64,000 bases of DNA from an uncultured Campylobacterota bacterium (GTDB lineage: Bacteria > Campylobacterota > Campylobacteria > Campylobacterales > Sulfurovaceae): contig CAKZQQ010000005.1 of NCBI GenBank assembly GCA_937141405.1, forward strand, positions 124,001 through 188,000, in the 5' to 3' direction. This document shows, piece by piece, positions 2,941-28,373 of this stretch (position 1 is its first letter; every line of letters begins with the position of its first letter). The notes beneath the pieces were generated by a model. That model searched no databases and was not told the DNA's origin. It was given only the letters and a program-made list of their open reading frames with translations. The position numbers and the translations under genes are program-made.

Positions 2941-2989
2941 CATCCCTCCCTAAAAAATTTCAATTTATTTTATTTAAGTATTCAATGTA

Positions 2990-3008
2990 TATAATGGTTG
3001 TTGAACAA
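2990..3008 (+). promoter_or_regulatory. Promoter core, boundary module S0
   Basis: TATAAT (2990-2995) lies in the word TATATAATGGTTGTT, which recurs exactly at 3900-3914 and 4432-4446. It is followed by GTTGAAC (3000-3006), which fits the integron core consensus GTTRRRY. The promoter would start transcription 30-40 bases upstream of the ATG at 3036. Confidence 0.6.
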
Positions 3009-3035
3009 AGAATTAGCTATCTAAGTGAGGTACAC

Positions 3036-3260
3036 ATGAAAACAACTGAGTTAGGACAAAAGCTCAAAGAAATGTATGACAAAGCACCCCATGGTGAAGC
3101 AGTGGCAATGATCCATTTATTTGGAATAAAATTTTCTGAAGACATTAAAGAAAGCAATGCCTCTTTCAAAGAAATTGCTGTTGCTGCTGGGATTGGTGAA
3201 TCATATGGAACTGAAATCAGTAAAGGCGCTAAACTCGCCAAGTATGTATCTGTTAAATAA
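3036..3260 (+). CDS. Small HTH-like domain protein, 74 aa
   Basis: I chose the ATG at 3036 because AAGTGAGG lies 6-7 bases before it. A longer frame from 2928 runs through the promoter and repeat. The protein resembles a widespread small family annotated as HTH-like: a charged N-terminal helix, an APHGEAVAMIHLFGI motif, then a possible helix-turn-helix (FKEIAVAAGIGESYGTEISKG). It may bind DNA; no partner gene is evident. The attC-like hairpin begins 4 bp after the stop codon, as in an integron cassette. Confidence 0.75.
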   Translation: MKTTELGQKLKEMYDKAPHGEAVAMIHLFGIKFSEDIKESNASFKEIAVAAGIGESYGTEISKGAKLAKYVSVK

Positions 3261-3263
3261 TTT

Positions 3264-3333
3264 ATATAACAAATCAGTGGAGCCAATAAATTACCCTGTG
3301 GGCAAATTCATCGGCTCATTTTAAACGTTAGAT
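3264..3333 (+). repeat. attC-like recombination site
   Basis: The 70-bp element has the architecture of an integron attC site. Outer arms are ATATAAC (3264-3270) and GTTAGAT (3327-3333, fits GTTRRRY). Inner arms are GAGCC (3280-3284) and GGCTC (3313-3317). Spacers on both sides are exactly 9 bp. The central part folds further: AATT with AATT and CC with GG. The left spacer begins AAATCAG, also found after ATCTAAC at 3815. It sits just after a small + strand gene. No integrase gene is in the window. Activity is inferred. Confidence 0.65.
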
Positions 3334-3349
3334 ATAAAAGAACAACAGA

Positions 3350-3820
3350 ATGATGCATATTGAAAAAATACCTACTCTTAATTCTTATGAGGATTGGATT
3401 GAAAAAGCAGAAAGAGAATTGTTACTATTTGAAAAAGTTGGTAGTGTTTATGATATGGCTAATTGTCTTCTAACTTTAAATGCTCTCCCGGAATGGATAG
3501 AAAAATCTGAAAAAGCACCTGAGATGTTAAGCCTTTTAGCTAAAGAAAAAATATCGATTATGAAGCACCTTAAATTAAATGTTGATAAATTAAAAGAAAA
3601 TGATATAGATCAAGCACTAAGGTTGGTTCGATTGTTTTGTAACCATGCAAAGCATGGTGATAAAAAGACTAATTTGGTTAAAATTGAAATGTCAGCTTCT
3701 TTGCCGGCTAAATTTCCTATAAGATTTGACTATTTGTCTGTTTGGGATGAAGAAAAACATTCTATTAAAGCTAATGAATTATTACGGAATATCATAGAGT
3801 TTTGGAGAAAACATATCTAA
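3350..3820 (+). CDS. Hypothetical protein, 156 aa, possible HEPN-like
   Basis: I do not recognise the family with certainty. The protein is mostly helical and soluble, without a signal peptide. It has RLFCNHAKHG near residue 100, a motif (R-x4-H, Asn and KH after it) seen in several helical families and compatible with a HEPN-type RNase; this is speculative. The start is ATG at 3350 or the adjacent ATG at 3353; the ribosome site is weak. The stop codon TAA (3818-3820) lies inside ATCTAAC, the left arm of the next attC-like site, a hallmark of cassette genes. Confidence 0.7.
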   Translation: MMHIEKIPTLNSYEDWIEKAERELLLFEKVGSVYDMANCLLTLNALPEWIEKSEKAPEMLSLLAKEKISIMKHLKLNVDKLKENDIDQALRLVRLFCNHAKHGDKKTNLVKIEMSASLPAKFPIRFDYLSVWDEEKHSIKANELLRNIIEFWRKHI

Positions 3821-3925
3821 CAAATCAGAGTTATAGGGTTGAGTAATAACGACAACGCACCCTCTTAATCGGAATACACGCAAGAGTTTATAAAATTTAT
3901 ATATAATGGTTGTTAGATAAGTAGA
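3815..3925 (+). repeat. Second attC-like element with embedded promoter (module S2)
   Basis: Outer arms ATCTAACAA (3815-3823) and TTGTTAGAT (3910-3918) are perfectly complementary and fit RYYYAAC/GTTRRRY. The left spacer AAATCAG equals that of the site at 3264. Inner arms are not as convincing as in that site. Inside lie a CTCTT/AAGAG hairpin (3862-3885) and a -10 box TATAAT (3902-3907), then the leader TTAGATAAGTAG (3913-3924). The right ~75 bp is repeated at 4373-4447 and more weakly at 8041-8105. Confidence 0.6.
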
Positions 3926-3943
3926 TAGGGCAAAAGGATTGAA

Positions 3944-4399
3944 ATGAACAAAATATTTTCGTCAATTATTATATTTTTAATAGGACTAATATCGGGATAT
4001 ATTTTTTTGATATTAGCTGGCTATGTGTCATGGTGGACAGACAGCTTGGTAGTCGCCCTCGCAAATATCTTAAAAGATTATGAAATGATTTATATGTTAG
4101 GCGTAATTAATGAGCTGAAAAATTTAATACTTTTAATATTTGTAGCAATTCCTGTTTTTTTACTTTCCGGATGGGTTTTAATGTATTTTTTTAGAAACAA
4201 TATAGGTATCGTTAAATGGATAAGTTCGATAGGAATATTAATTTTCCTCATTGTTTTTGCTGTATTTCCCTCTCTATATCATGGTCGATTTTTTGATGCA
4301 TTTACAGTGCTAGTCGTGCCGTTATCTATAAACTTATTTCTTATAGGTAAGATATCCAAGATAGATAGGTCTAGCAACAATGACAACTCATCCTCTTGA
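3944..4399 (+). CDS. Hypothetical inner-membrane protein, 151 aa
   Basis: I recognise no family. There are four strongly hydrophobic segments at about residues 5-29, 60-85, 93-112 and 118-135, so it should be an integral membrane protein. AAAAGGATTGAA gives a ribosome site before the ATG. The last ~10 residues (RSSNNDNSSS) are encoded by the repeat module that starts near 4370, so the natural C-terminus has probably been replaced where the module joined. It sits between modules S2 and S3, like a single cassette. Confidence 0.7.
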   Translation: MNKIFSSIIIFLIGLISGYIFLILAGYVSWWTDSLVVALANILKDYEMIYMLGVINELKNLILLIFVAIPVFLLSGWVLMYFFRNNIGIVKWISSIGILIFLIVFAVFPSLYHGRFFDAFTVLVVPLSINLFLIGKISKIDRSSNNDNSSS

Positions 4400-4450
4400 T
4401 TGGAATGCACACGCGAGTTTATAAAACTTTATATATAATGGTTGTTAGTT
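4370..4450 (+). repeat. Repeated boundary/promoter module S3
   Basis: About 75 bp here match 3845-3918 with few differences, including CCTCTTGAT-TGGAAT, CGAGTTTATAAAA and the exact word TATATAATGGTTGTT. The -10 box is 4434-4439. It ends GTTAGTT (4444-4450), one base off GTTRRRY. The CTC...GAG hairpin of S2 is weaker here. It overlaps the end of the upstream gene and supplies a promoter to the next one. Confidence 0.7.
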
Positions 4451-4468
4451 AAAATAAAGGGGAAGCAG

Positions 4469-5044
4469 ATGGAAAATAAGTTGGTAACAGAAAATTCAAA
4501 ATCTGCATTCGTGACAGTATTAGCTTGGATAGGAATCGTATTTTCAGGAGTTGGAACTTTTATTGCTATCATTCAAAATATCATGTTCAGGTTTCTGATG
4601 CCAAAACTGCCGATCGAACAACTTTTGAATGAACATAACAGTTCTCTGCAAAATCCTGAAATAACTCGATTTATGTTCCGGCACCTTGATTTATTGTTCT
4701 TAGTAGCATTGTTGATCTCACTGTTTGCCTTAATCGCATCAATCGGCCTTCTCAAGCGAAAAAACTGGGCAAGAATTGCATTTATTACCATGTTGGCTAT
4801 TGGTATTGTTTTGAATCTGCTCAGTCTTGTTCTTCAGCAGACATCGATGCAGCAGCTACCTTTGCCTTTAAATGCTCCTGTAGAGTTTCAATCACAAATG
4901 GAGACTATGATGAGAGTGATGTCAATCGTTTCTATAATTTTTGGATTGGCATTTACCGCACTTTATGGCTGGATTATATGGAAGTTACGTTCTCCAAAAA
5001 TTATCAATGAGTTTAAAAGCGTTGAGCATCTCAATGTCCAATAA
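4469..5044 (+). CDS. Hypothetical four-helix membrane protein, 191 aa
   Basis: I chose ATG 4469 because AAAGGGGAAG precedes it; the frame upstream overlaps the promoter module. Four transmembrane segments lie at about residues 13-40, 73-95, 102-124 and 148-172, with a charged soluble loop (PIEQLLNEHNSS) between the first two. The topology resembles small uncharacterised membrane proteins; there is no catalytic motif. A further gene follows after 49 bp without a module, so it may share this transcript. Confidence 0.7.
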   Translation: MENKLVTENSKSAFVTVLAWIGIVFSGVGTFIAIIQNIMFRFLMPKLPIEQLLNEHNSSLQNPEITRFMFRHLDLLFLVALLISLFALIASIGLLKRKNWARIAFITMLAIGIVLNLLSLVLQQTSMQQLPLPLNAPVEFQSQMETMMRVMSIVSIIFGLAFTALYGWIIWKLRSPKIINEFKSVEHLNVQ

Positions 5045-5093
5045 ACCAAAAGGGACTAATCAAACGCCATAAGGATAGAAGGAGATATAAAAT

Positions 5094-6341
5094 ATGAAAA
5101 AGATAATAATTTTAATCAATGTATTCCTTGGCGTAGCATATAGCGCAAGTTTTACAGAAGATTTAAATACAGCTAATGCATTATATGAACAAAACAAACA
5201 AGAAGAAGCTAAAAATTATTATATAAAAGCTTCAAAAAATGGTAGTGCTGAAGCACATTTTAAATTGGCCTATCAATATATTACAAATAAAGAAGAGTCA
5301 ATTTATCATTACTCAGAAGCAGCTAAACTCGGCCATCCTGAAGCTTTAGATTATGCCTTAGAAGCACTATTTTTTCGAGGAAATGATCTTGTTTTAGCGA
5401 ATCCAAGAAAAGCGCTTGAAGTTTATAATAACGTCAAAAAAAATAATAGTAAAATCACTATTTATAATGAAGAAAACTATATCAAAATTTTGAAAATGGC
5501 ATCAGAAGTTCCTCTGCTTGATGGCGAAGAGTTTATCAAAAGATACCAATTGGAAAAAGATGAGGGCTTTAGTGATGATAGTTACTATATTTGGAAACTA
5601 GCCGAAAAAGCTTCACGAGGAGAAAGATTTAAAAACCCAAGTTCAGAACTAGTCTTACAACTGATTATAAAAGGCGGTTCTGTTCCAGCTGAAGTTAAGA
5701 GTGCTGTAAGCGATTATTATAATATCTGGAAAAATGGAAAAGAAATAGTCGAATTTGATATATGTAACTATGTTACAAGTACTTACGGTATGAGTATGTG
5801 TGCCGCGCGACAAGAAAAAAGAGAAAATGATAAAATTGAAAAAAAGCTATCATCAATTTTAACGGATTTAAAGCTAAATAATAAAGAACTTTTGTACAGT
5901 TCATATGACATAACATCTCAATATCTAAAGACAAAGGTATGGAACGAAGAAGGCCACGATGGCTCAGGTTATGCTGTGTGGGCTATAGGCTCTTTACTAA
6001 AACAAAAAAATAAATATTTAGAATTTATGAAAAAAATAGCAAATGGATTTGTGCCTGAGTGCAAAGGAAGCTTAGCCGAAAATGATATACTATTAAACAA
6101 ACGATATGGAGAAATAAAAGAAAAACTAAAAAAGACTCCTTTGCGCGGTATGCACATGTCTATTACCGAAGAAGATTTTGAAAAAGTTCAAAGATTATGG
6201 ATTCCTTATCGGGATACAAATGCAAAATTATATGCATCAATTTCGAAACAAAAAGAGATAAATTTTTGGAAAAATTATTTCACGATTCAAAGAATGAAAG
6301 CATACGATTTGCTAGAAATTTTAATTGAAGATTATAAGTAA
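5094..6341 (+). CDS. Secreted Sel1/TPR-like repeat protein, 415 aa
   Basis: A signal peptide (about residues 1-18, ending YSAS) is followed by Sel1/TPR-like helical repeats, for instance NALYEQNKQEEAKNYYIKASKNG and HFKLAYQY...YSEAAKLGHPEA (about residues 27-85). The middle and C-terminal parts are helical and rich in Lys/Glu, with four Cys (two near residue 225-240). Such proteins are usually periplasmic scaffolds. AGAAGGAGATATAAAATATG gives a very strong ribosome site. It is unrelated in sequence to its neighbours and very AT-rich. Confidence 0.72.
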   Translation: MKKIIILINVFLGVAYSASFTEDLNTANALYEQNKQEEAKNYYIKASKNGSAEAHFKLAYQYITNKEESIYHYSEAAKLGHPEALDYALEALFFRGNDLVLANPRKALEVYNNVKKNNSKITIYNEENYIKILKMASEVPLLDGEEFIKRYQLEKDEGFSDDSYYIWKLAEKASRGERFKNPSSELVLQLIIKGGSVPAEVKSAVSDYYNIWKNGKEIVEFDICNYVTSTYGMSMCAARQEKRENDKIEKKLSSILTDLKLNNKELLYSSYDITSQYLKTKVWNEEGHDGSGYAVWAIGSLLKQKNKYLEFMKKIANGFVPECKGSLAENDILLNKRYGEIKEKLKKTPLRGMHMSITEEDFEKVQRLWIPYRDTNAKLYASISKQKEINFWKNYFTIQRMKAYDLLEILIEDYK

Positions 6342-6392
6342 AACCTTATACAAATAATATGTTAGTTAAGTATGTTGATTAAGGTTGTTTTC

Positions 6393-6416
6393 TATACAAT
6401 GTAATTAGATAAATAG
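6393..6416 (+). promoter_or_regulatory. Promoter and conserved leader for the 6437 gene
   Basis: TATACAAT (6393-6400) acts as a -10 box and is followed by TTAGATAAATAG (6405-6416). The same leader word follows the -10 boxes at 3902 and 11777, where it reads TTAGATAAGTAG and TTAAATAAATAG. Confidence 0.5.
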
Positions 6417-6436
6417 TTGGGTGTCAAGGGAGTATA

Positions 6437-6784
6437 GTGAAATATTTTGTTTTTGCGTTGCTTTTCTTCTTTTCTTCTGCTTCTGCCGAAACACTTACAA
6501 CGGATAACTTCATTATTGAGATTGAGCGTGGCTGCGAAGAAGGCGTAGTAACTTGTGATAATATAAAATTCACATACGTACTTGTTGGCTTTGATAAGAA
6601 GCAAACCGCCATTGGAAAAACTGTGCATACGAAGTGTGCTGATGGCATTACCCCATGTAGATTTCAAGGCTATGAATTTTTAGACGATGGAGCTAAATTC
6701 TTTATTTACGATTCAGGTGTGCTTGAAGTTACAGATGGCGAAGGTCACCAACTCTTGCTGGAGCAGGGTAAATGGCAATACTAA
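6437..6784 (+). CDS. Hypothetical periplasmic protein, 115 aa
   Basis: The start is GTG at 6437 with AGGGAG 7-8 bases upstream. Residues 1-17 form a signal peptide (MKYFVFALLFFFSSASA). The mature part has two Cys pairs, CEEGVVTC and KCADGITPC, spaced for disulfides, and a small beta-rich fold. No named family is recognised. It stands alone between a promoter with the conserved island leader and another secreted-protein gene. Confidence 0.7.
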   Translation: MKYFVFALLFFFSSASAETLTTDNFIIEIERGCEEGVVTCDNIKFTYVLVGFDKKQTAIGKTVHTKCADGITPCRFQGYEFLDDGAKFFIYDSGVLEVTDGEGHQLLLEQGKWQY

Positions 6785-6865
6785 AAACATGCGATTTGGT
6801 AAAGCCGGTGTTTGAGGTAGTATACGGCAGCAGTAGGAGAAAATCTTGAACCACAAAGAGGAAAC

Positions 6866-7483
6866 ATGAACATACTGACATATATCGCATTAGCGACAAC
6901 TCTACTTATCGGCACTACCGCGAAAGCCCAAAATATGGGCGAGAGATTTACCTCTTTTGCAGACTTTCAGCTCGGCACTGTGAAGTTGTCTAATATTCAA
7001 GATCAGTTGGGAGCAGCAGAAGTAATAGAAACCGGGGAAGCCGGCGAATATATAGCTTCAGTTTGTTATAACACTCCTCATGGTGTCATCCTATTTTTCG
7101 CCGGTGAACTAGACGGATCGGAGCACGATCTTGGAGGTTTCGGTTTTGCCAAGAAAACAGAACGAAAACCATGCGGGAATTGGTCGGCAACATCAACTGC
7201 GCCTACTCTCGATATAGGTGGCTTACGACTTGGTATTACCTTGAAGGAATTTACCGATATTGTAGACACTTCAGTTCGTGTGGAAGGCGATAGAGCTTAT
7301 GCTGTTTTCGAGAGCAAAGAGATCATGACCAAAGAAGAAATTTCACATCTTTCAAAAGAAGCGCAGGCGATGATCAAAAAAGGAGAACTGCAAAATTATT
7401 CTGATGTTCTTATTTCGGTTATTGCAATTTTTTCTGAGGAGCGTCTAGTAGAGCTTAATGTATGGAAGACAGAAACACTATAG
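6866..7483 (+). CDS. Hypothetical periplasmic protein, 205 aa
   Basis: A clear signal peptide (residues 1-21, ending TTAKAQ) precedes a soluble protein. Recurrent features are QDQLGAAEVIETGEAGEY, a Cys at about residue 68 and another near 102, and GLRLGITLKEF, which resembles the 'GI.lG.s..ev..llG' repeats of small periplasmic proteins. AGAGGAAAC precedes the ATG. Function is unknown. It is 33 bp upstream of the next secreted-protein gene and may be co-transcribed with it. Confidence 0.68.
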   Translation: MNILTYIALATTLLIGTTAKAQNMGERFTSFADFQLGTVKLSNIQDQLGAAEVIETGEAGEYIASVCYNTPHGVILFFAGELDGSEHDLGGFGFAKKTERKPCGNWSATSTAPTLDIGGLRLGITLKEFTDIVDTSVRVEGDRAYAVFESKEIMTKEEISHLSKEAQAMIKKGELQNYSDVLISVIAIFSEERLVELNVWKTETL

Positions 7484-7516
7484 AGGCAGTTAACCGTTTA
7501 ACATAAGGAATATCAA

Positions 7517-8005
7517 ATGAGAGTTACTCTTTTTATCTATCTGCTTATAGGTGCCGTCGTCGGTATCCACGCAGAGATAGATTCACACTGCACTAAAACC
7601 GAAAGTGTAATTTTTAGTTGTCAAATCAAGGATTCGGATAAGATATTTTCCTTGTGTGCATCAAAGGATATAAGTGATACATCGGGTTATATTCAGTATC
7701 GATTTGGAAGGTTAAATAAGGTAGAGTTAACATTCCCAAATGATCGTTTGCATAGTCAAAAACGATTTTTATATAGACACTATTTTCGCTCACAAGTTGA
7801 TAGAGTCGAGATTGCTTTTGCGAATCATGGAGAAAAATATACAATCTATAGTTACTACGAGGGGGATGGCGAGGGCACACCCGTAGAAGAAAAAGGAGTG
7901 CGTGTCGGTAATGTTGATTTGCAGTGCAAGGAGCCTAGCAAGGCAGATTTTACACTGCTTGAAAATTCCATTCCGTATGACGAAGAAAGTGTTTTGGGGC
8001 GTTAA
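7517..8005 (+). CDS. Conserved hypothetical periplasmic protein, 162 aa
   Basis: A signal peptide (about residues 1-19) is followed by a conserved uncharacterised domain with the landmarks SCQIKDSDKIFSLCASK, SGYIQYRFGRLNKVEL, YRHYFRSQVDR and a C-terminal SIPYDEESVLGR. I recall the same pattern in uncharacterised proteins of many proteobacteria, often in mobile or accessory regions. Three or four Cys probably form disulfides. TAAGGA precedes the ATG. Function is unknown. Confidence 0.72.
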   Translation: MRVTLFIYLLIGAVVGIHAEIDSHCTKTESVIFSCQIKDSDKIFSLCASKDISDTSGYIQYRFGRLNKVELTFPNDRLHSQKRFLYRHYFRSQVDRVEIAFANHGEKYTIYSYYEGDGEGTPVEEKGVRVGNVDLQCKEPSKADFTLLENSIPYDEESVLGR

Positions 8006-8040
8006 TGGCTAGCACGGTGTTGAAATAAGAGGGATCACCG

Positions 8041-8115
8041 GCGATAAGATAACGCATCCTCTTGATAGGAATACGGGCAAGAGTTTATAGATTTTTTTAT
8101 ATAATATTTCGATAA
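8041..8115 (+). repeat. Repeated boundary/promoter module S4
   Basis: AACGCATCCTCTTGATAGGA (8051-8070), then ATAC and GGCAAGAGTTTATA, matches modules S2 and S3. CTCTTG and CAAGAG make a 6-bp hairpin. The -10 box is TATAAT at 8100-8105. The right end lacks the GTTRRRY core of S2 (it reads TTTCGATAAATAATC). It provides a promoter for the sseB-like gene at 8144. Confidence 0.6.
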
Positions 8116-8143
8116 ATAATCATAGATTCAAAAGGAGGCATCT

Positions 8144-9683: not shown

Positions 9684-9722
9684 TCTGTGACGCAATCTGT
9701 GACGCTCTCATGATAGTATTAT
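9684..9722 (+). promoter_or_regulatory. Tandem TCTGTGACGC boxes and promoter
   Basis: TCTGTGACGC occurs twice (9684-9693 and 9696-9705), exactly 12 bp apart, followed by a -10-like TATTAT (9717-9722). The same tandem pair with the same spacing lies at 27797-27818. Direct repeats one helical turn apart are typical of OmpR/PhoB-type regulators; such a regulator is encoded at 25221-25895. The link is inferred. Confidence 0.65.
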
Positions 9723-9758: not shown

Positions 9759-9977
9759 ATGGAAAATTATGTAATGAATGAAAACCCTCAAGCCAATGGT
9801 GATTATGAGATTCACAGTAAAACCAAAGGCTGTTCGCATATGCCTCACATTCAAAATCAAATTGATTTAGGGTATTATGTATCATGTGGTGAAGCAGTTG
9901 CTGAGGCTAAAAAAAGATGGCCTCACAAAAGAATCAATGGCTGTTTTTACTGTTGCCTTCTTTGTCATACAAGCTAA
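9759..9977 (+). CDS. Conserved small Cys-rich protein, 72 aa
   Basis: The protein has a pattern I recall from many small uncharacterised bacterial proteins, often found in accessory regions: NENPQANGDYEIH, a Cys at about 25, LGYYVSCGEAVAEAKK, then GCFYCCLLCHTS at the C-terminus. Six Cys and several His suggest metal binding or disulfides; no signal peptide is present. The promoter upstream carries tandem TCTGTGACGC boxes shared with the GrpE-like gene at 27894, so it may belong to the same regulon. Function is unknown. The 136 bp after it hold only a short GAGAC/GTCTC hairpin (10049-10061). Confidence 0.75.
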   Translation: MENYVMNENPQANGDYEIHSKTKGCSHMPHIQNQIDLGYYVSCGEAVAEAKKRWPHKRINGCFYCCLLCHTS

Positions 9978-23003: not shown

Positions 23004-23196
23004 AGTGTCTCCCCAAATTCGTAATATAATATCTTGGTACATTTTTTTCACTTCTGTTTCATAGATTTTGATCTATCAAGTTATGAAAATATTGAACATG
23101 TATTATAGCAAAATCAAACAAGCAGTTAGCTGTATATTGGAGAAGATATCTGTGTGAGTAATAAAAATGATGTGCGTAACAGATCGCGTCATAAAA

Positions 23197-24372
23197 TCAA
23201 AACATTTTGCAATATTCTTTTAAAATGTCGATAGATTTTTCAAATGATTTCATAAAAAAACTATGTGTATGTGACAGAGCATCATAAAAAAGTTGCATTT
23301 GCCTAAGAGAGCGTTTGACAAGAGCAGGGTGTGGACGTTCGTTATCTAAAAAACTTTCTATTTTTTCACCAACACCTTCTGCTTCTAAAAGAAGCTTGAA
23401 TTCATATCTATTCATTGTTTTGTAGTATCTATGGTGAGTTTTGTCTTTTTGAAGTGAATGCTTTGAGCGCTCGTAGATTGTTTTTAAATCGATTTTTGAA
23501 AAACGACTCTCAAGCGGAAAGAGCATCTGAGCCAGTTTGACTACATAGAGTAGATTAATACCTGTATAGTAGCTATAAATTCCTTTTGCAGCATGAAGTT
23601 TTTGATAACCTGCTATAAGGTCATAAAGTTTCTCTTTATCAATGGGTCTTTCTTGTAATAGTTCTCTCTTGTGGTTGGAGAGCGCGGAAGTTCGAAGGTT
23701 GATGCTTTCAATAAAATCATCATCTATTAAAATATGAAGTATCTGTTTCGCTTCCCCATACTCTCCTAGACATCCCAGTGAGTTTGCTTCAATTTTTTGT
23801 ATTTTAGTAAAGAGGCGATATTTCCTATATAGAGGTGGCAAAATAGATGAGATGATGATTTCATACAATCCTTTTTTATAGGAAAGCATGAGCAATTTGA
23901 GTAGAAATTCTTGGTTTTCAACTTTTTTATCTAGTAGCCCAATGTGTAAAAATTGATTTATCATTTTTCTCTCTTCACTCTCTTCGTTGAGTTTAATAAA
24001 TCTATCAAGATGATCGATTTGCTCTTGAGTAATAGGAGTGCTAGAGTGAATAATATTTGAGATATCCAATGCCTCCTCGCCGGGAAATTGTCGCAATAGT
24101 AGCTTTTTTTGTATAGCTTCTCGTATCCGTTTTTTCTGAGTACTTTCGCTTATGTGCCATATATCTCTTTGAAAGTCAAATTTTTTTTCAATAGCATTTA
24201 AAAAATATCTGTCTCGTATTTCTCCACGGCGATTTATATACCCACTAAGCCTTTTTATATAGATTTTGTTTGTCGGTATGTTTATATAAGACAATAAATC
24301 TTTGTTGTAAGTGATGATGTTTGCTTCTTTGAGAGCATCAATAAGATAGCCGATGATTTCTGTGTGTTTCAT
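23197..24372 (-). CDS. Repeat-rich helical protein, 391 aa, unknown function
   Basis: No clear family. I chose ATG 24372 because CAAGGAGACCGC lies directly before it. The first ~70 residues (EIIGYLIDALKEANIITYNKD..INRRGEIRDRYFLNAIEKKF) look like a small, possibly DNA-binding, helical domain. The rest is helical and TPR-like, including NSLGCLGEYGEAKQILH and YYTGINLLYVVKLAQMLFP, the latter reminiscent of the TRAFs-binding (DUF4071) region. It is divergent from the LuxI-like gene (229 bp between starts), which suggests a regulator or partner of that gene; this is inference. Confidence 0.7.
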   Translation of the reverse strand: MKHTEIIGYLIDALKEANIITYNKDLLSYINIPTNKIYIKRLSGYINRRGEIRDRYFLNAIEKKFDFQRDIWHISESTQKKRIREAIQKKLLLRQFPGEEALDISNIIHSSTPITQEQIDHLDRFIKLNEESEERKMINQFLHIGLLDKKVENQEFLLKLLMLSYKKGLYEIIISSILPPLYRKYRLFTKIQKIEANSLGCLGEYGEAKQILHILIDDDFIESINLRTSALSNHKRELLQERPIDKEKLYDLIAGYQKLHAAKGIYSYYTGINLLYVVKLAQMLFPLESRFSKIDLKTIYERSKHSLQKDKTHHRYYKTMNRYEFKLLLEAEGVGEKIESFLDNERPHPALVKRSLRQMQLFYDALSHTHSFFMKSFEKSIDILKEYCKMF

Positions 24373-24440
24373 GCGGTCTCCTTGAAAGATAAAAAACTTT
24401 AATACCCATTGCATCAAGTCCGAAAAGTCGGAATTGAGTA

Positions 24441-24461
24441 TGTGACACTTACTTGTGCATC
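24441..24461 (+). promoter_or_regulatory. Degenerate TGTGAC-like boxes
   Basis: TGTGACAC (24441-24448) and TTGTGCATC (24453-24461) loosely resemble the tandem TCTGTGACGC boxes at 9684 and 27797, but the spacing is 13 bp and the second box is poor. They lie in the divergent promoter region upstream of the LuxI-like gene. Confidence 0.25.
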
Positions 24462-24508
24462 TAGTTTATCAATAAATAAATAGAACTGATGCATGAAAGG
24501 AGTGGAAT

Positions 24509-24607
24509 ATGACACAAACAAAGAAGAATTACTTACAAGATGAGTTGGGCTTTTGCCGTCCAAGCACAATGCATCAAAAACAAAAATACAAGAGCATTAT
24601 ATGCTAG
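24509..24607 (+). CDS. Short leader ORF, 32 codons, overlapping the LuxI-like gene
   Basis: ATG 24509 has the best ribosome site in the area (AAAGGAGTGGAAT). The frame encodes a 32-residue basic peptide starting MTQTKKNYLQDELG and ending in Cys (KSIIC). Its stop TAG (24605-24607) overlaps the ATG of the acyl synthase gene at 24601. The synthase start itself has only a weak ribosome site, so translation of the leader probably drives it. It could be a regulatory leader peptide, a small signal, or the N-terminus of a frameshifted synthase. It is too short to identify by homology. Confidence 0.5.
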   Translation: MTQTKKNYLQDELGFCRPSTMHQKQKYKSIIC

Positions 24608-25224
24608 ATTCAATAGCAAGAAATGCACTCTCTTTCAACAAAAAGTTATCATTGGAAGGCTGTAAAAACAATATTTTTCTTGCAACGACTCTGGATGAAT
24701 TGTTGGAGGTGTATAAAATACGAAGTAAAATCTACGCTAAATTACAATATAGCAATGAGTTTCCCGATGCCATAGAGGGATTGAATTTTGATGCTTATGA
24801 CGAGCATTCCGCTATTATCTATACGAAGAAGAATGGCAAAATTAGCGGTACTTGCAGATTGATATTTGATTGTGATAAATATAAATTGCCTATAGATGAA
24901 CATTATTCTTTGGATTATTTACGTAAAAAGGGTAAAAAGTTAGCGGAATTGTCACGATTGGTTATAGAACATGAGAATAAAGGTTTAAATCAAGAGTTTA
25001 AATTGCTTACAAAGGGTGTCTATTTTACTATGATTAATAACGGTATTACCGACGTTGTATCTGTTATGAGCGAAGAGCATTATAGGTGGTATGATAAGTT
25101 TGGAGGATTTCAAATAGAAGAGAGATTTGAGAGTTATGGAAATATAGGCAAACCTTTTGTCGTCACATCGTGGAATGTAGCAAAAATATCAGATTTTTTT
25201 AAGAGAGTTTTTTTAAGAGATTAA
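24601..25224 (+). CDS. LuxI/FeeM-like N-acyl synthase (GNAT fold)
   Basis: The 207-aa protein carries the spaced signature of acyl-homoserine-lactone synthases and related FeeM N-acyl-amino-acid synthases: Arg41 (YKIRSKIY), Asp64-x-x-Asp67 (FDAYD), Arg86 (GTCRLI), Glu116-x-x-Arg119 (ELSRLVI). Distances from the first Arg (+23, +26, +45, +75, +78) closely match LuxI. The usual Trp is missing. Product could be an acyl-homoserine lactone, an acyl amino acid or another acylated compound. ATG 24601 overlaps a leader ORF; a TTG at 24553 is the alternative start. It ends convergently with the response regulator gene (4-bp overlap). Confidence 0.72.
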   Translation: MLDSIARNALSFNKKLSLEGCKNNIFLATTLDELLEVYKIRSKIYAKLQYSNEFPDAIEGLNFDAYDEHSAIIYTKKNGKISGTCRLIFDCDKYKLPIDEHYSLDYLRKKGKKLAELSRLVIEHENKGLNQEFKLLTKGVYFTMINNGITDVVSVMSEEHYRWYDKFGGFQIEERFESYGNIGKPFVVTSWNVAKISDFFKRVFLRD

Positions 25225-25895
25225 TCTTTTATCACGAGTCGATACCCAAAAGAAGGAATGGTTTCGATTGGAAGATCTTTTAGTTTCATTCGTAATCTAT
25301 ATACAAGGTTTCTCAAGGAGTTCTCGGCAAGTGGCGCATTTTCACCCCAAAGATGTTCTTCTATGACATTGACGGGAACTATGCTTCCCTTGGACTCTAC
25401 GAGTAACTGTAAAAATAATCTCTCGTTGGAGCCGAGATAGATAGGTACTTTTTTGTGGTATATCTTTTTTGATTTATTATCATAGTAATACTCACGACCT
25501 AGAGATTGTAAAGCATTTTTTTGTTGTATTTTATTGAGAACAATCATGAGGTTGGATTTGAGTTCTTCACGTCTAAATGGTTTTGTGAGATAAGCAGCAG
25601 GGTCTGTTTTGGAGGCTTCTCTCATAGTATCATCGTTATTATCAGAAGTGAGATAGATAAATGGTATAGGATCATTTTCGGATATTTTTTTTGCAAGTTC
25701 TATACCGTTTTTTTTACTCTTAAGATCGATATCCAAAAGTATGATATCCGGCTTTTTTTGCTTTATACTCTGCAAAGCATCCTCGTAACTACTCACAATA
25801 TCTGTGACACTATAACCCATTTTAATGAGTGATTTTTTTATCTCAAGCGCAGTGATTGATACATCTTCAACGATTAAAATATTAATTTCGTTCAT
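25221..25895 (-). CDS. OmpR-type response regulator
   Basis: This 224-aa response regulator has a receiver domain at residues 4-120: acidic pair Glu10/Asp11, phospho-acceptor Asp55 in IILLDIDL, Lys105 in YLTKPF. A winged-helix Trans_reg_C domain follows at about 135-222 (LGSNERLFLQLLVESKG, ENSLRNLVYRLRMKL, IPSFGYRLV). The start overlaps the kinase gene end by 14 bp, so the two form an operon. Tandem TCTGTGACGC boxes 77 bp upstream of the kinase start are good candidate binding sites; that link is inferred. Confidence 0.92.
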   Translation of the reverse strand: MNEINILIVEDVSITALEIKKSLIKMGYSVTDIVSSYEDALQSIKQKKPDIILLDIDLKSKKNGIELAKKISENDPIPFIYLTSDNNDDTMREASKTDPAAYLTKPFRREELKSNLMIVLNKIQQKNALQSLGREYYYDNKSKKIYHKKVPIYLGSNERLFLQLLVESKGSIVPVNVIEEHLWGENAPLAENSLRNLVYRLRMKLKDLPIETIPSFGYRLVIKD

Positions 25896-27720
25896 TATTG
25901 CTCCATAGAATATTTATCTCGGTTCCGTTTTCTGTATCGATACGTAGCTCTCCGCCAAGTTGATTTTTGGCTAGAGTATCAATGATAGTTAGCCCTAGGG
26001 TATCACTCAGAGAATCATATGTAAAACCTATACCGTTATCCTTTATCATAAAATGATATATGTTATCACTCTTATCCAATGTAATCAATGCTTCTCCGGA
26101 GTTTGTATGATTAAAGGCGTGCTGATAGATGTTTGTGATTGATTCATTGAGGATGAAGCCACAATATACGGCATCATCAGAGTTTAGCTCTGCTTTAGTC
26201 TCCAAATTTATGGTGATATATGGTTTTTGAAAACTTTTTTGCACATTGCCTATAAGTGATGAAAAATAATCATAAGCATTGACTGTAGAGATATTTTCTT
26301 GTGTGTTTAAAAGTGCATAAAGATCATTGATTGCAAAAACCTTATTTTCTAAATTTTGCAAGATTACTTTCCCCTCTTTGCTCTGGGTTTCATCTCTTTG
26401 GAGTCGCAAAAATGAGACGATGGTCTGCATAGAGTTTTTTACTCTATGGTTAAGCTCTTTAAGGAGTAGTTTTTTCTCTTCTAGAGATTTTTTTAGTGCT
26501 CCTGTTTTATTTTCTACGATACGAGAGAGTCTATCTGTCTCTTCTTCCTGATAAGATATGAGTTTATTTTGTGCAGCTATTTTCTCTTTGCCAAGTTGTT
26601 TGATTTTGTCTGCAAGTGAGAGAGAGAAGATGACCGATTCGGCAGTTATAGAAAATTCTGTATAGTAAGGATAAGAAACAAAAATATCGTAGATTCCCCA
26701 ACTTGAGAGAAACATAAGAAGTGCGGAGGTGAAGAAGAGTATCCACCCAATCGTGATAAATTTAGCTTGCCTGTTGTTTCGCAATAATGCATAGATTGTT
26801 GTTCCAAAGAGTATAAAGAGAAGCACAACAGGTGTGATACTGCGCAGTTGATTGAGATCAAGCAAGAAAAAGAGAATCGTCAAAAAGATGAAAGCGCCGA
26901 TACTATAGTTTAAAAAACGATTGAGTTTAGGGTATTGTTGTGTATTGAGGATACTCATCGTAAAAAGTGCTAAAAAAAGTGTCGGTATAGCAACGATAAA
27001 GGATGAGTATTTTATCGTTGTGAGAATACCTTCATGGGGCAATATATATAGATTTGCAACACCTTTATAGAGGAGATGATGCATGGTAATGCCGATGAAA
27101 GCAAGTACATAGTAGAGGTAACTTCTATCTCTTGTGCTAAGATAAACGATGAGGTTATAGATGATGATGATGCTCATCGCCCCAAAAAAAAGAGCCAATA
27201 TAAATTGGTAATGTATCTCTTCTTTGTAGAAAGCATCCTCGTCCCACAATTTCATTTGAACTATAAGGGTTGTGATATCTGATGTAGCTTTTATGTAAAA
27301 TGTTTTAGACTCATTTGGGAGCAAGGTAATCTTAAAAGAGGGGTGGATAGATTTTCTATTCTCTGCAGTATCCAGGAGCCCATCTTTTGCTAAGAGTCTA
27401 TCGGGGTTTGCTTCATAAAGCATAATGTTTGAAGTAAGAGGGTTCTCATATTCGATAATCCTATGGATAGTTTGTGAGGATGTGTTGTTGAGATCAAAGC
27501 GTATCCAAACATCAAAATCAGGCGAATAGCCGTAACTCAACATCTTTTTGCTATTTGGTTGAAACTCTTTATCTTTTACCGTGTGGATAGTGTCTGATCT
27601 ATTGTGATCGATATAGATTTGAGCATGAGGCAAGAGCTCATAGAAGGTTTTTTTTGCATCGATATCTAAAGCAAATAAAAAACTGTTAAAAAGAAAAATG
27701 AGGCATATAAACCTTTTCAT
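25882..27720 (-). CDS. 7TMR-DISM sensor histidine kinase (HisKA_2 type)
   Basis: About 612 aa. Order: signal peptide (1-18), periplasmic 7TMR-DISMED2-like beta domain (about 22-160, with WIRFDLNNTS), seven transmembrane helices (about 170-372, 7TMR-DISM_7TM), a coiled coil, HisKA_2 phospho-acceptor region (LKELNHRVKNSMQTI, His425) and a HATPase domain (FILNESITNIYQHAF, DNGIGF, LGLTIIDTLA). DISM receptors are thought to sense carbohydrates or other small molecules. I use ATG 27720; a TTG start 12 bases upstream is possible. It is coupled to the response regulator gene. Confidence 0.9.
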   Translation of the reverse strand: MKRFICLIFLFNSFLFALDIDAKKTFYELLPHAQIYIDHNRSDTIHTVKDKEFQPNSKKMLSYGYSPDFDVWIRFDLNNTSSQTIHRIIEYENPLTSNIMLYEANPDRLLAKDGLLDTAENRKSIHPSFKITLLPNESKTFYIKATSDITTLIVQMKLWDEDAFYKEEIHYQFILALFFGAMSIIIIYNLIVYLSTRDRSYLYYVLAFIGITMHHLLYKGVANLYILPHEGILTTIKYSSFIVAIPTLFLALFTMSILNTQQYPKLNRFLNYSIGAFIFLTILFFLLDLNQLRSITPVVLLFILFGTTIYALLRNNRQAKFITIGWILFFTSALLMFLSSWGIYDIFVSYPYYTEFSITAESVIFSLSLADKIKQLGKEKIAAQNKLISYQEEETDRLSRIVENKTGALKKSLEEKKLLLKELNHRVKNSMQTIVSFLRLQRDETQSKEGKVILQNLENKVFAINDLYALLNTQENISTVNAYDYFSSLIGNVQKSFQKPYITINLETKAELNSDDAVYCGFILNESITNIYQHAFNHTNSGEALITLDKSDNIYHFMIKDNGIGFTYDSLSDTLGLTIIDTLAKNQLGGELRIDTENGTEINILWSNNERN

Positions 27721-27796
27721 ACAATAAACCAATCTTAATATATACTTTAATTATATTTTTTTAATTATAGTGGAAAATAATAAAAATTTAACACTA

Positions 27797-27832
27797 TCTG
27801 TGACGCTATCTGTGACGCTTTATGATTATAAT
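27797..27832 (+). promoter_or_regulatory. Tandem TCTGTGACGC boxes in the kinase/GrpE-like divergent region
   Basis: TCTGTGACGC occurs at 27797-27806 and 27809-27818, 12 bp apart, then TATAAT (27827-27832) for the + strand gene at 27894. The second box sits where a -35 would be, fitting activation by an OmpR-type regulator. The same pair precedes the gene at 9759. Possible minus-strand -10 boxes for the kinase are at 27764-27769 and 27750-27755. Confidence 0.7.
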
Positions 27833-27893
27833 GGAATATTAATCTGCTTACTCTTTAAAGCAGAGCTAATAATATGATGTTGAAGGAAGCAAT

Positions 27894-28373
27894 ATGAAAA
27901 AAAATACAGATACACAATCTTTAGATCTAGCGCAAATCCATCAAAATCAAAAAATTATTTTAGATTTGTATGAAAAAAGATGTAAACATGAGAAGATAAA
28001 AGAAGATACGCTTGAGAGGCTTTATGAAGAGCTCGATGCTCTTAAGCACAATAAAGAGTTTCAAAAGATAAAACCCTTTTATCTCGATTTGATTTCCCTC
28101 TATGATCGTGTGGCTGACCTAAAAAAAGAAGATGATGCATTGAGCACGATATGCGACGAGCTGTTAGAGGTTCTGCAAAAGCAAAATATAGAGATCATAA
28201 AGATGCAAGATGACATCCTTGATCTCTCTTTGCAAAAAGTTATTGACATAGAAATCGTAGATGATGCCAATGCACATTCGAAGGTTGTTAAAGTTTTGCG
28301 AGACGGCTTTAGATATAAAGATAAGCTTTTAAGACCTCAAGAAGTTACAATTGGAGCACATATCAAGCTTTGA
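27894..28373 (+). CDS. GrpE-like protein
   Basis: This 159-aa protein resembles the Hsp70 nucleotide-exchange factor GrpE. It has a long N-terminal helical part (about 8-110) and a C-terminal beta domain with ANAHSKVVKVLRDGFRYKDKLLRPQEVTIGA, matching the GrpE 'GY...drvLRPa.V.V' end. It lacks a typical acidic GrpE N-terminus and is divergent, so it is probably a second, specialised GrpE-like protein; the canonical hrcA-grpE-dnaK operon is not in this window. Its promoter holds tandem TCTGTGACGC boxes. GAAGGAAGC precedes the ATG. Confidence 0.72.
   Translation: MKKNTDTQSLDLAQIHQNQKIILDLYEKRCKHEKIKEDTLERLYEELDALKHNKEFQKIKPFYLDLISLYDRVADLKKEDDALSTICDELLEVLQKQNIEIIKMQDDILDLSLQKVIDIEIVDDANAHSKVVKVLRDGFRYKDKLLRPQEVTIGAHIKL

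Follow-up and report, generated by a model that had tools for sequence, protein, structure and literature searches.

A conserved acyl synthase, 7TMR-DISM kinase and OmpR-type regulator cassette with a shared promoter box in Campylobacterales: a candidate autoinducer circuit

In Vibrio, the LuxM-LuxN and AinS-AinR systems pair an acyl-signal synthase with a membrane histidine kinase, not with a LuxR-type receptor (PMC5007282). FeeM-type N-acyl amino acid synthases share the autoinducer-synthase fold and have therefore been suspected to be signal makers (PMC4897644), while 7TMR-DISM receptors, e.g. SagS of Pseudomonas, combine a DISM sensor with a seven-transmembrane histidine kinase (PMC8544897). 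In a literature search, mostly outside subscription journals, we found no described receptor for the products of FeeM-type synthases, nothing relevant on a DISM/autoinducer pair or on FeeM or N-acyl amino acids in Campylobacterota, and no description of a synthase/kinase/regulator combination of the kind analysed here.

The locus lies in a window of 64,000 nucleotides (the whole stretch analysed, G000:C5:124001-188000) of a 1.75-Mb genome. An earlier note on this DNA had described five open reading frames with tandem boxes, among them a convergent regulator-kinase pair and a divergent GrpE-like gene. All are present where it placed them, and reading frames and Pfam domains bear out the arrangement: a divergent helical-repeat gene, a FeeM-family synthase, a response regulator-histidine kinase (RR-HK) pair pointing at the synthase, and, reading away from the kinase, a GrpE-like gene. 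The RR and kinase genes overlap by 14 bp. The coding features are:

9759..9977, plus strand: 72-aa Cys-rich ORF directly 3' of the second perfect box, a candidate output
23197..24372 (ORF to 24417), minus strand: helical-repeat protein, ATG start at 24372, fold from an AlphaFold2 model
24509..24607, plus strand: 32-aa ORF with a good RBS, its TAG overlapping the synthase ATG (ATGCTAG)
24601..25224, plus strand: predicted FeeM/LuxI-fold acyl synthase, likely start ATG 24601, longest ORF from TTG 24553
25221..25895, minus strand: OmpR/PhoB-type response regulator (Response_reg 73 bits, Trans_reg_C 48 bits)
25882..27732, minus strand: sensor histidine kinase (DISMED2, DISM_7TM, HisKA_2, HATPase_c), likely start ATG 27720
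27894..28373, plus strand: GrpE-like protein, with box, -10 element and RBS upstream

The synthase matches the Pfam FeeM model with 75.7 bits (cut-off 27), while no match to the Pfam autoinducer synthase (LuxI) model is reported at E 0.1. Membership of LuxI by sequence was rejected on this ground and because a profile search of PDB chains returned FeeM only. VIA-align of the AlphaFold2 model (pLDDT 90) gives FeeM as the best match (2g0b, Z 18.2), followed by the AHL synthases RpaI, BjaI and LasI at Z 16-17 (LasI 1ro5: Z 16.1, rmsd 2.6 over 171 residues). Generic GNATs reach Z 15.2 at most, below both FeeM and the AHL synthases. The model thus points to a LuxI/LasI fold, and the label 'LuxI-like' in the earlier note holds for the LuxI/FeeM class by fold, not for the Pfam family. 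Residues R57, D80, D83, R102, E132, S134 and R135 are invariant across 36 homologues, a set that we take to resemble the R..D..D..R..E-x-S-R of LuxI enzymes; an N-acyl amino acid and an AHL-like molecule are therefore both conceivable products. Two positions that are presumably Phe/Trp in LuxI are mostly Tyr in these synthases. In the HMM alignment E132 is aligned with the glutamate in the 'AEV' stretch of FeeM, the proposed catalytic residue of FeeM/Nas (PMC4897644). The 32-aa ORF matches a stretch that extends other synthases at the N-terminus. This extension is out of frame in the window and broken at the same A9 run in G034 and G192 (loci L013, about 2979-3100, and L071, near 3009), which could reflect degeneration, an assembly error, slippage or translational coupling.

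The kinase comprises a DISMED2 sensor, a seven-transmembrane DISM region, HisKA_2 and an ATPase domain (Pfam), and H429, N529/N534 and D565/G567/G569 are invariant across 18 cassette kinases. The response regulator consists of a receiver and an OmpR-type DNA-binding domain. The pair has the features of a two-component system: H-box, ATP-binding motifs and a receiver joined to a DNA-binding output. By analogy, synthase, kinase and regulator may form a synthase-receptor autoinducer circuit that is LuxM-LuxN-like in its working and built from other protein families, the reading that we favour, at about even chances. In such a circuit the FeeM/LuxI-fold enzyme would make an N-acylated amino-acid-type or AHL-like molecule and the 7TMR-DISM kinase would respond to it. 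The OmpR-type regulator would then bind tandem TGTGACGCNNNC-TGTGACGC boxes abutting the -10 element and switch target promoters, probably by activation from the box. Its targets across genomes would be the synthase gene along with surface, secretion, glycan and c-di-GMP genes that differ from one genome to the next.

Synthase, 7TMR-DISM HisKA_2 kinase and OmpR-type regulator are a real conserved cassette. The earlier note had proposed a gene-neighbourhood survey of Campylobacterota genomes as a check, with independent scattering as the refuting outcome; the survey shows that these three genes are not scattered independently. Synthase homologues occur in 14 of the 175 genomes of the window's GTDB-defined family. 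The RR gene adjoins FeeM in 14/14 of these and the kinase gene too in 12/14; in G072 and G189, both draft genomes with the locus on a short contig, a kinase next to FeeM-RR was not recognised, which we count against the autoinducer reading. HK and RR converge on FeeM in the family loci, except in G016, where FeeM lies downstream in the same direction. Across the order, genomes of Arcobacteraceae, of Sulfurospirillum-like bacteria and of others have the trio as well, frequently in the order HK-RR-FeeM, and HK-RR adjoins FeeM in the majority of loci; at L145 and L146 a kinase was not seen near FeeM. Some cassettes carry a second regulator after FeeM, and in several Arcobacteraceae cassettes (L205-L212) an OmpR-type one lies directly beyond it. 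Among 398 Campylobacterales genomes, synthase and cassette-clade kinase are found together in 30, the kinase only in 5, the synthase only in 0 and neither in 363 (Fisher p 3e-40, genomes treated as independent of phylogeny). These counts join two surveys, taken as one draw since handles and counts agree, and a synthase was counted where the FeeM match was strong.

In the kinase tree, all 39 FeeM-linked kinases fall with 8 solo kinases into one clade (support 98/98), in which the solos are nested at the tips among linked ones, and 15 other FeeM-less DISM kinases lie outside. The solo kinases thus appear to be synthase losses. Distances among the FeeM proteins parallel those among the kinases (Mantel r 0.82, 0/2000 permutations), as co-inheritance predicts. 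Taken by kinase part, the correlation with FeeM is r 0.58 for DISMED2, 0.83 for the 7TM region and 0.73 for the kinase portion; the sensor tracks FeeM less closely than the other parts do, and this too counts against the autoinducer reading. G388 and G461 have common neighbours, with FeeM present in one and absent in the other between the RR and lipoprotein genes. Probably the box-using two-component system came first, FeeM joined it at the base of one clade and several losses followed.

The likely regulator code is the tandem box TGTGACGCNNNC-TGTGACGC with a 12-bp period. Its copies in the window, a -10 element and a second type of repeat are:

9686..9705, plus strand: second perfect box, with the -10 element TAGTAT at 9714-9719
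23174..23193, minus strand: degenerate box with 2 mismatches, directed toward NhaD; at the corresponding position in the sister genome G004 the box is perfect
24417..24433, no strand assigned: tandem AGTCCGAAAAGTCGGAA between the repeat-protein and synthase genes, also present in G004 and G030 and, in degenerate form, in G162 and G156
27799..27818, plus strand: perfect tandem box TGTGACGCTATC-TGTGACGC between the kinase and GrpE-like genes, oriented toward the latter
27827..27832, plus strand: -10 element TATAAT, 8 nt after the box

Among 91 distinct box copies from the fetched loci (at most 2 mismatches, -10 element not used in the search), 78 have TAnnnT exactly 8 nt 3' of the box, with at most 14 at any other offset. 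We take this spacing to be that of activator sites of the PhoB/OmpR type. A form of the pattern with 14 specified bases, allowed at most 2 mismatches, matches four times in the 1.75-Mb genome, two of the matches being good, and the reversed control gives 0. A scan of 40 genomes yielded 73 box matches compared to 3 for the reversed pattern. FeeM genomes hold 71 of the 73, with at least one match in 20 of 28, while two of the 12 FeeM-less genomes have one each. From this co-distribution we infer that the linked regulator binds the tandem box. In G054, a perfect box (L273, 497+) precedes a small gene although this genome is FeeM-negative; the gene resembles the HTH_3 gene that this box precedes in the congener G370. 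The cassette-clade kinase was not found in G054 at E 1e-130, if this genome is in the 398-genome draw.

A box precedes most synthase genes outside the window's family. Of 46 loci, 30, the majority of them not from this family, have a box within 250 bp upstream of FeeM that beats all 200 shuffles. Within the family the FeeM promoter is mostly free of a box, and the kinase promoter region has the box or variants of it (TCTGACGC in G030). The shuffle test finds no significant box at the synthase promoter of the window or of the other repeat-protein loci, a further point against the autoinducer reading. A stretch at the window's FeeM promoter (24438-24460) resembles the box by eye and was rejected as no better than shuffles (p 0.88). 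The tandem AGTCCGAAAAGTCGGAA is conserved in loci that have the repeat protein and lack a good FeeM box and may be a separate operator.

The genes directly behind boxes vary by genome and have surface, secretion, glycan and c-di-GMP functions. They encode a two-partner-secretion translocator, a TolC-type outer-membrane protein, a type II pseudopilin and an OMP beta-barrel, as well as a glycosyltransferase, a UDP-GlcNAc 2-epimerase, a Tle1-like phospholipase, a FIST-GGDEF-EAL protein and DUF5625 proteins. Sulfurospirillum-like genomes have a box-led operon with racemase-like and AMP-binding enzymes divergent from FeeM, which might tailor the synthase product; at L216 (6982-11464) and L217 (1289-5804) this Asp/Glu-racemase-like/AMP-binding operon shares the box-bearing intergenic DNA with FeeM. 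In the window, the GrpE-like gene and the 72-aa Cys-rich ORF, the latter without a Pfam match, are the leading candidate targets. As a perfect box in promoter geometry directly precedes the GrpE-like gene, the proposal of the earlier note that this gene is an output is plausible. In three genomes, boxes precede short ORFs (42 to 77 aa) that contain Cys (window 9759-9977; L126 4940-5170; L263 about 371-496).

Established here are the conserved cassette, its co-inheritance, the fold and conserved residues of the synthase and the shared box with fixed promoter spacing. These observations can also be read in another way, which we think somewhat unlikely and still a serious contender: the DISM kinase responds to some unrelated signal from the envelope or the environment, FeeM is one output among others and its N-acyl amino acid acts as a membrane aminolipid, surfactant or antagonist, with no feedback sensing. 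FeeM indeed has a box like any other target, the remaining targets are envelope and secretion genes, and lipid and surfactant makers are known among FeeM-class enzymes (PMC11631085, PMC4897644). Moreover, the box persists with solo kinase-regulator pairs, where a synthase is missing, and weaker boxes lie near some of the outgroup kinases that have no FeeM. The two-component system can thus do without FeeM, which argues against the autoinducer reading. However, an output role leaves unexplained why one kinase clade is tied to an adjoining synthase gene while the other targets differ by genome, and in a non-systematic inspection of FeeM genes an O-acyltransferase, the aminolipid partner, was not noticed beside them.

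That the trio is a horizontally moving cassette whose members share no pathway is improbable. Its patchy distribution, with carriers in only 2 of the 11 genomes of the window's genus, and its plasmid copies would be in line with mere linkage, but co-occurrence holds where the genes are non-adjacent (FeeM and HK on one contig about 33 kb apart in G259 and about 24 kb apart in G520), and FeeM shares the box upstream.

Least probable by far is a five-gene signalling island with the GrpE-like and repeat proteins as constant parts, which the genome survey largely refutes: the GrpE-like promoter has a box and the repeat protein divergently flanks FeeM in 5 loci, but close homologues of the GrpE-like protein were not found elsewhere and the majority of cassettes lack the repeat protein. 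Of the unit that the earlier note had proposed, synthase, kinase and RR are conserved across the order, while these two proteins are not constant members. The GrpE-like protein scores 40.3 bits against Pfam GrpE (cut-off 25.8) and stays below all NCBIfam GrpE equivalog cut-offs. A close homologue was not found in 175 family or 372 class genomes, in which it was seen in the window genome only. We rejected it as a conserved member since elsewhere only canonical GrpE occurs, at about 28% identity; in the sister locus of G004 it is absent and the neighbours are otherwise the same.

The repeat protein has no Pfam or NCBIfam match and no recognised DNA-binding domain. Its AlphaFold2 model (pLDDT 84.5) shows helical repeats throughout, and the top Foldseek match is the central region of ASK1 (5ulm, TM 0.50, prob 1.0, E 0.016), followed by a Rap protein whose TM is low. 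The idea of a regulator of LuxR or RRNPP type is thus unsupported, as is the 'regulator' of the earlier note, since matches in the PDB are to helical repeats only. With the TRAF-binding central regulatory region of ASK1 it shares the predicted helical-repeat fold; the match is weak, and the repeat protein is bacterial. The five loci in which it adjoins the synthase are all in the window's family, and it is an accessory gene in some cassettes. Distant relatives sit elsewhere. At L058 (7049-10965), L059 (8431-12343) and L060 (1965-5858) such relatives lie between TIR-TPR and YpsA/SLOG-like proteins (domains checked in L058, assigned by similarity in L059 and L060), possibly in a nucleotide-signal or defence operon.

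Extending the autoinducer reading to the whole group, we propose, tentatively and with slightly less than even confidence, a widespread quorum-sensing language of Campylobacterota in which a FeeM/LuxI-fold product is perceived by a 7TMR-DISM kinase and a defined promoter code serves changing social-type outputs. If this is true, it assigns an acyl autoinducer to 7TMR-DISM kinases as their ligand and a membrane receptor of their own to FeeM-type synthases. Synthase, candidate receptor kinase, regulator and DNA code come as a unit, also in culturable named species, and with the box code regulon genes can be picked out directly in genome sequences. The named carriers Malaciobacter halophilus and Aliarcobacter cryaerophilus, the latter with the cassette on a plasmid of ATCC 43158 whose annotation calls the synthase a 'hypothetical protein', make the signalling question experimentally testable. 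On this plasmid (L332, pACRY43158, 3060-8123) the cassette adjoins a gene annotated dgt (dGTPase), and dgt-like-looking genes also neighbour cassettes in L201, L204, L315 and L320.

Compared to known systems, the synthase has the Pfam match, the best structural match and the catalytic-glutamate alignment in common with FeeM-type enzymes (2g0b; PMC4897644). It differs from them by its linkage to a two-component system and by R102 and R135, where the HMM alignment has other residues in FeeM. With the AHL synthases LasI, RpaI and BjaI it shares the predicted fold, but neither a Pfam LuxI match nor a LuxR-type partner. The kinase has the DISM sensor and 7TM histidine kinase of receptors such as SagS (PMC8544897), yet comes with its own adjoining regulator gene and a linked synthase. 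As in LuxM-LuxN (PMC5007282), a gene for a presumed acyl-signal synthase is linked to that of a membrane histidine kinase. In contrast to that system, the synthase belongs to the FeeM/LuxI fold and not to the LuxM family, the sensor is a DISMED2-7TMR kinase with HisKA_2 whose acyl ligand is a candidate, and the output would run through a direct OmpR-type regulator with its own box instead of a LuxU-LuxO relay.
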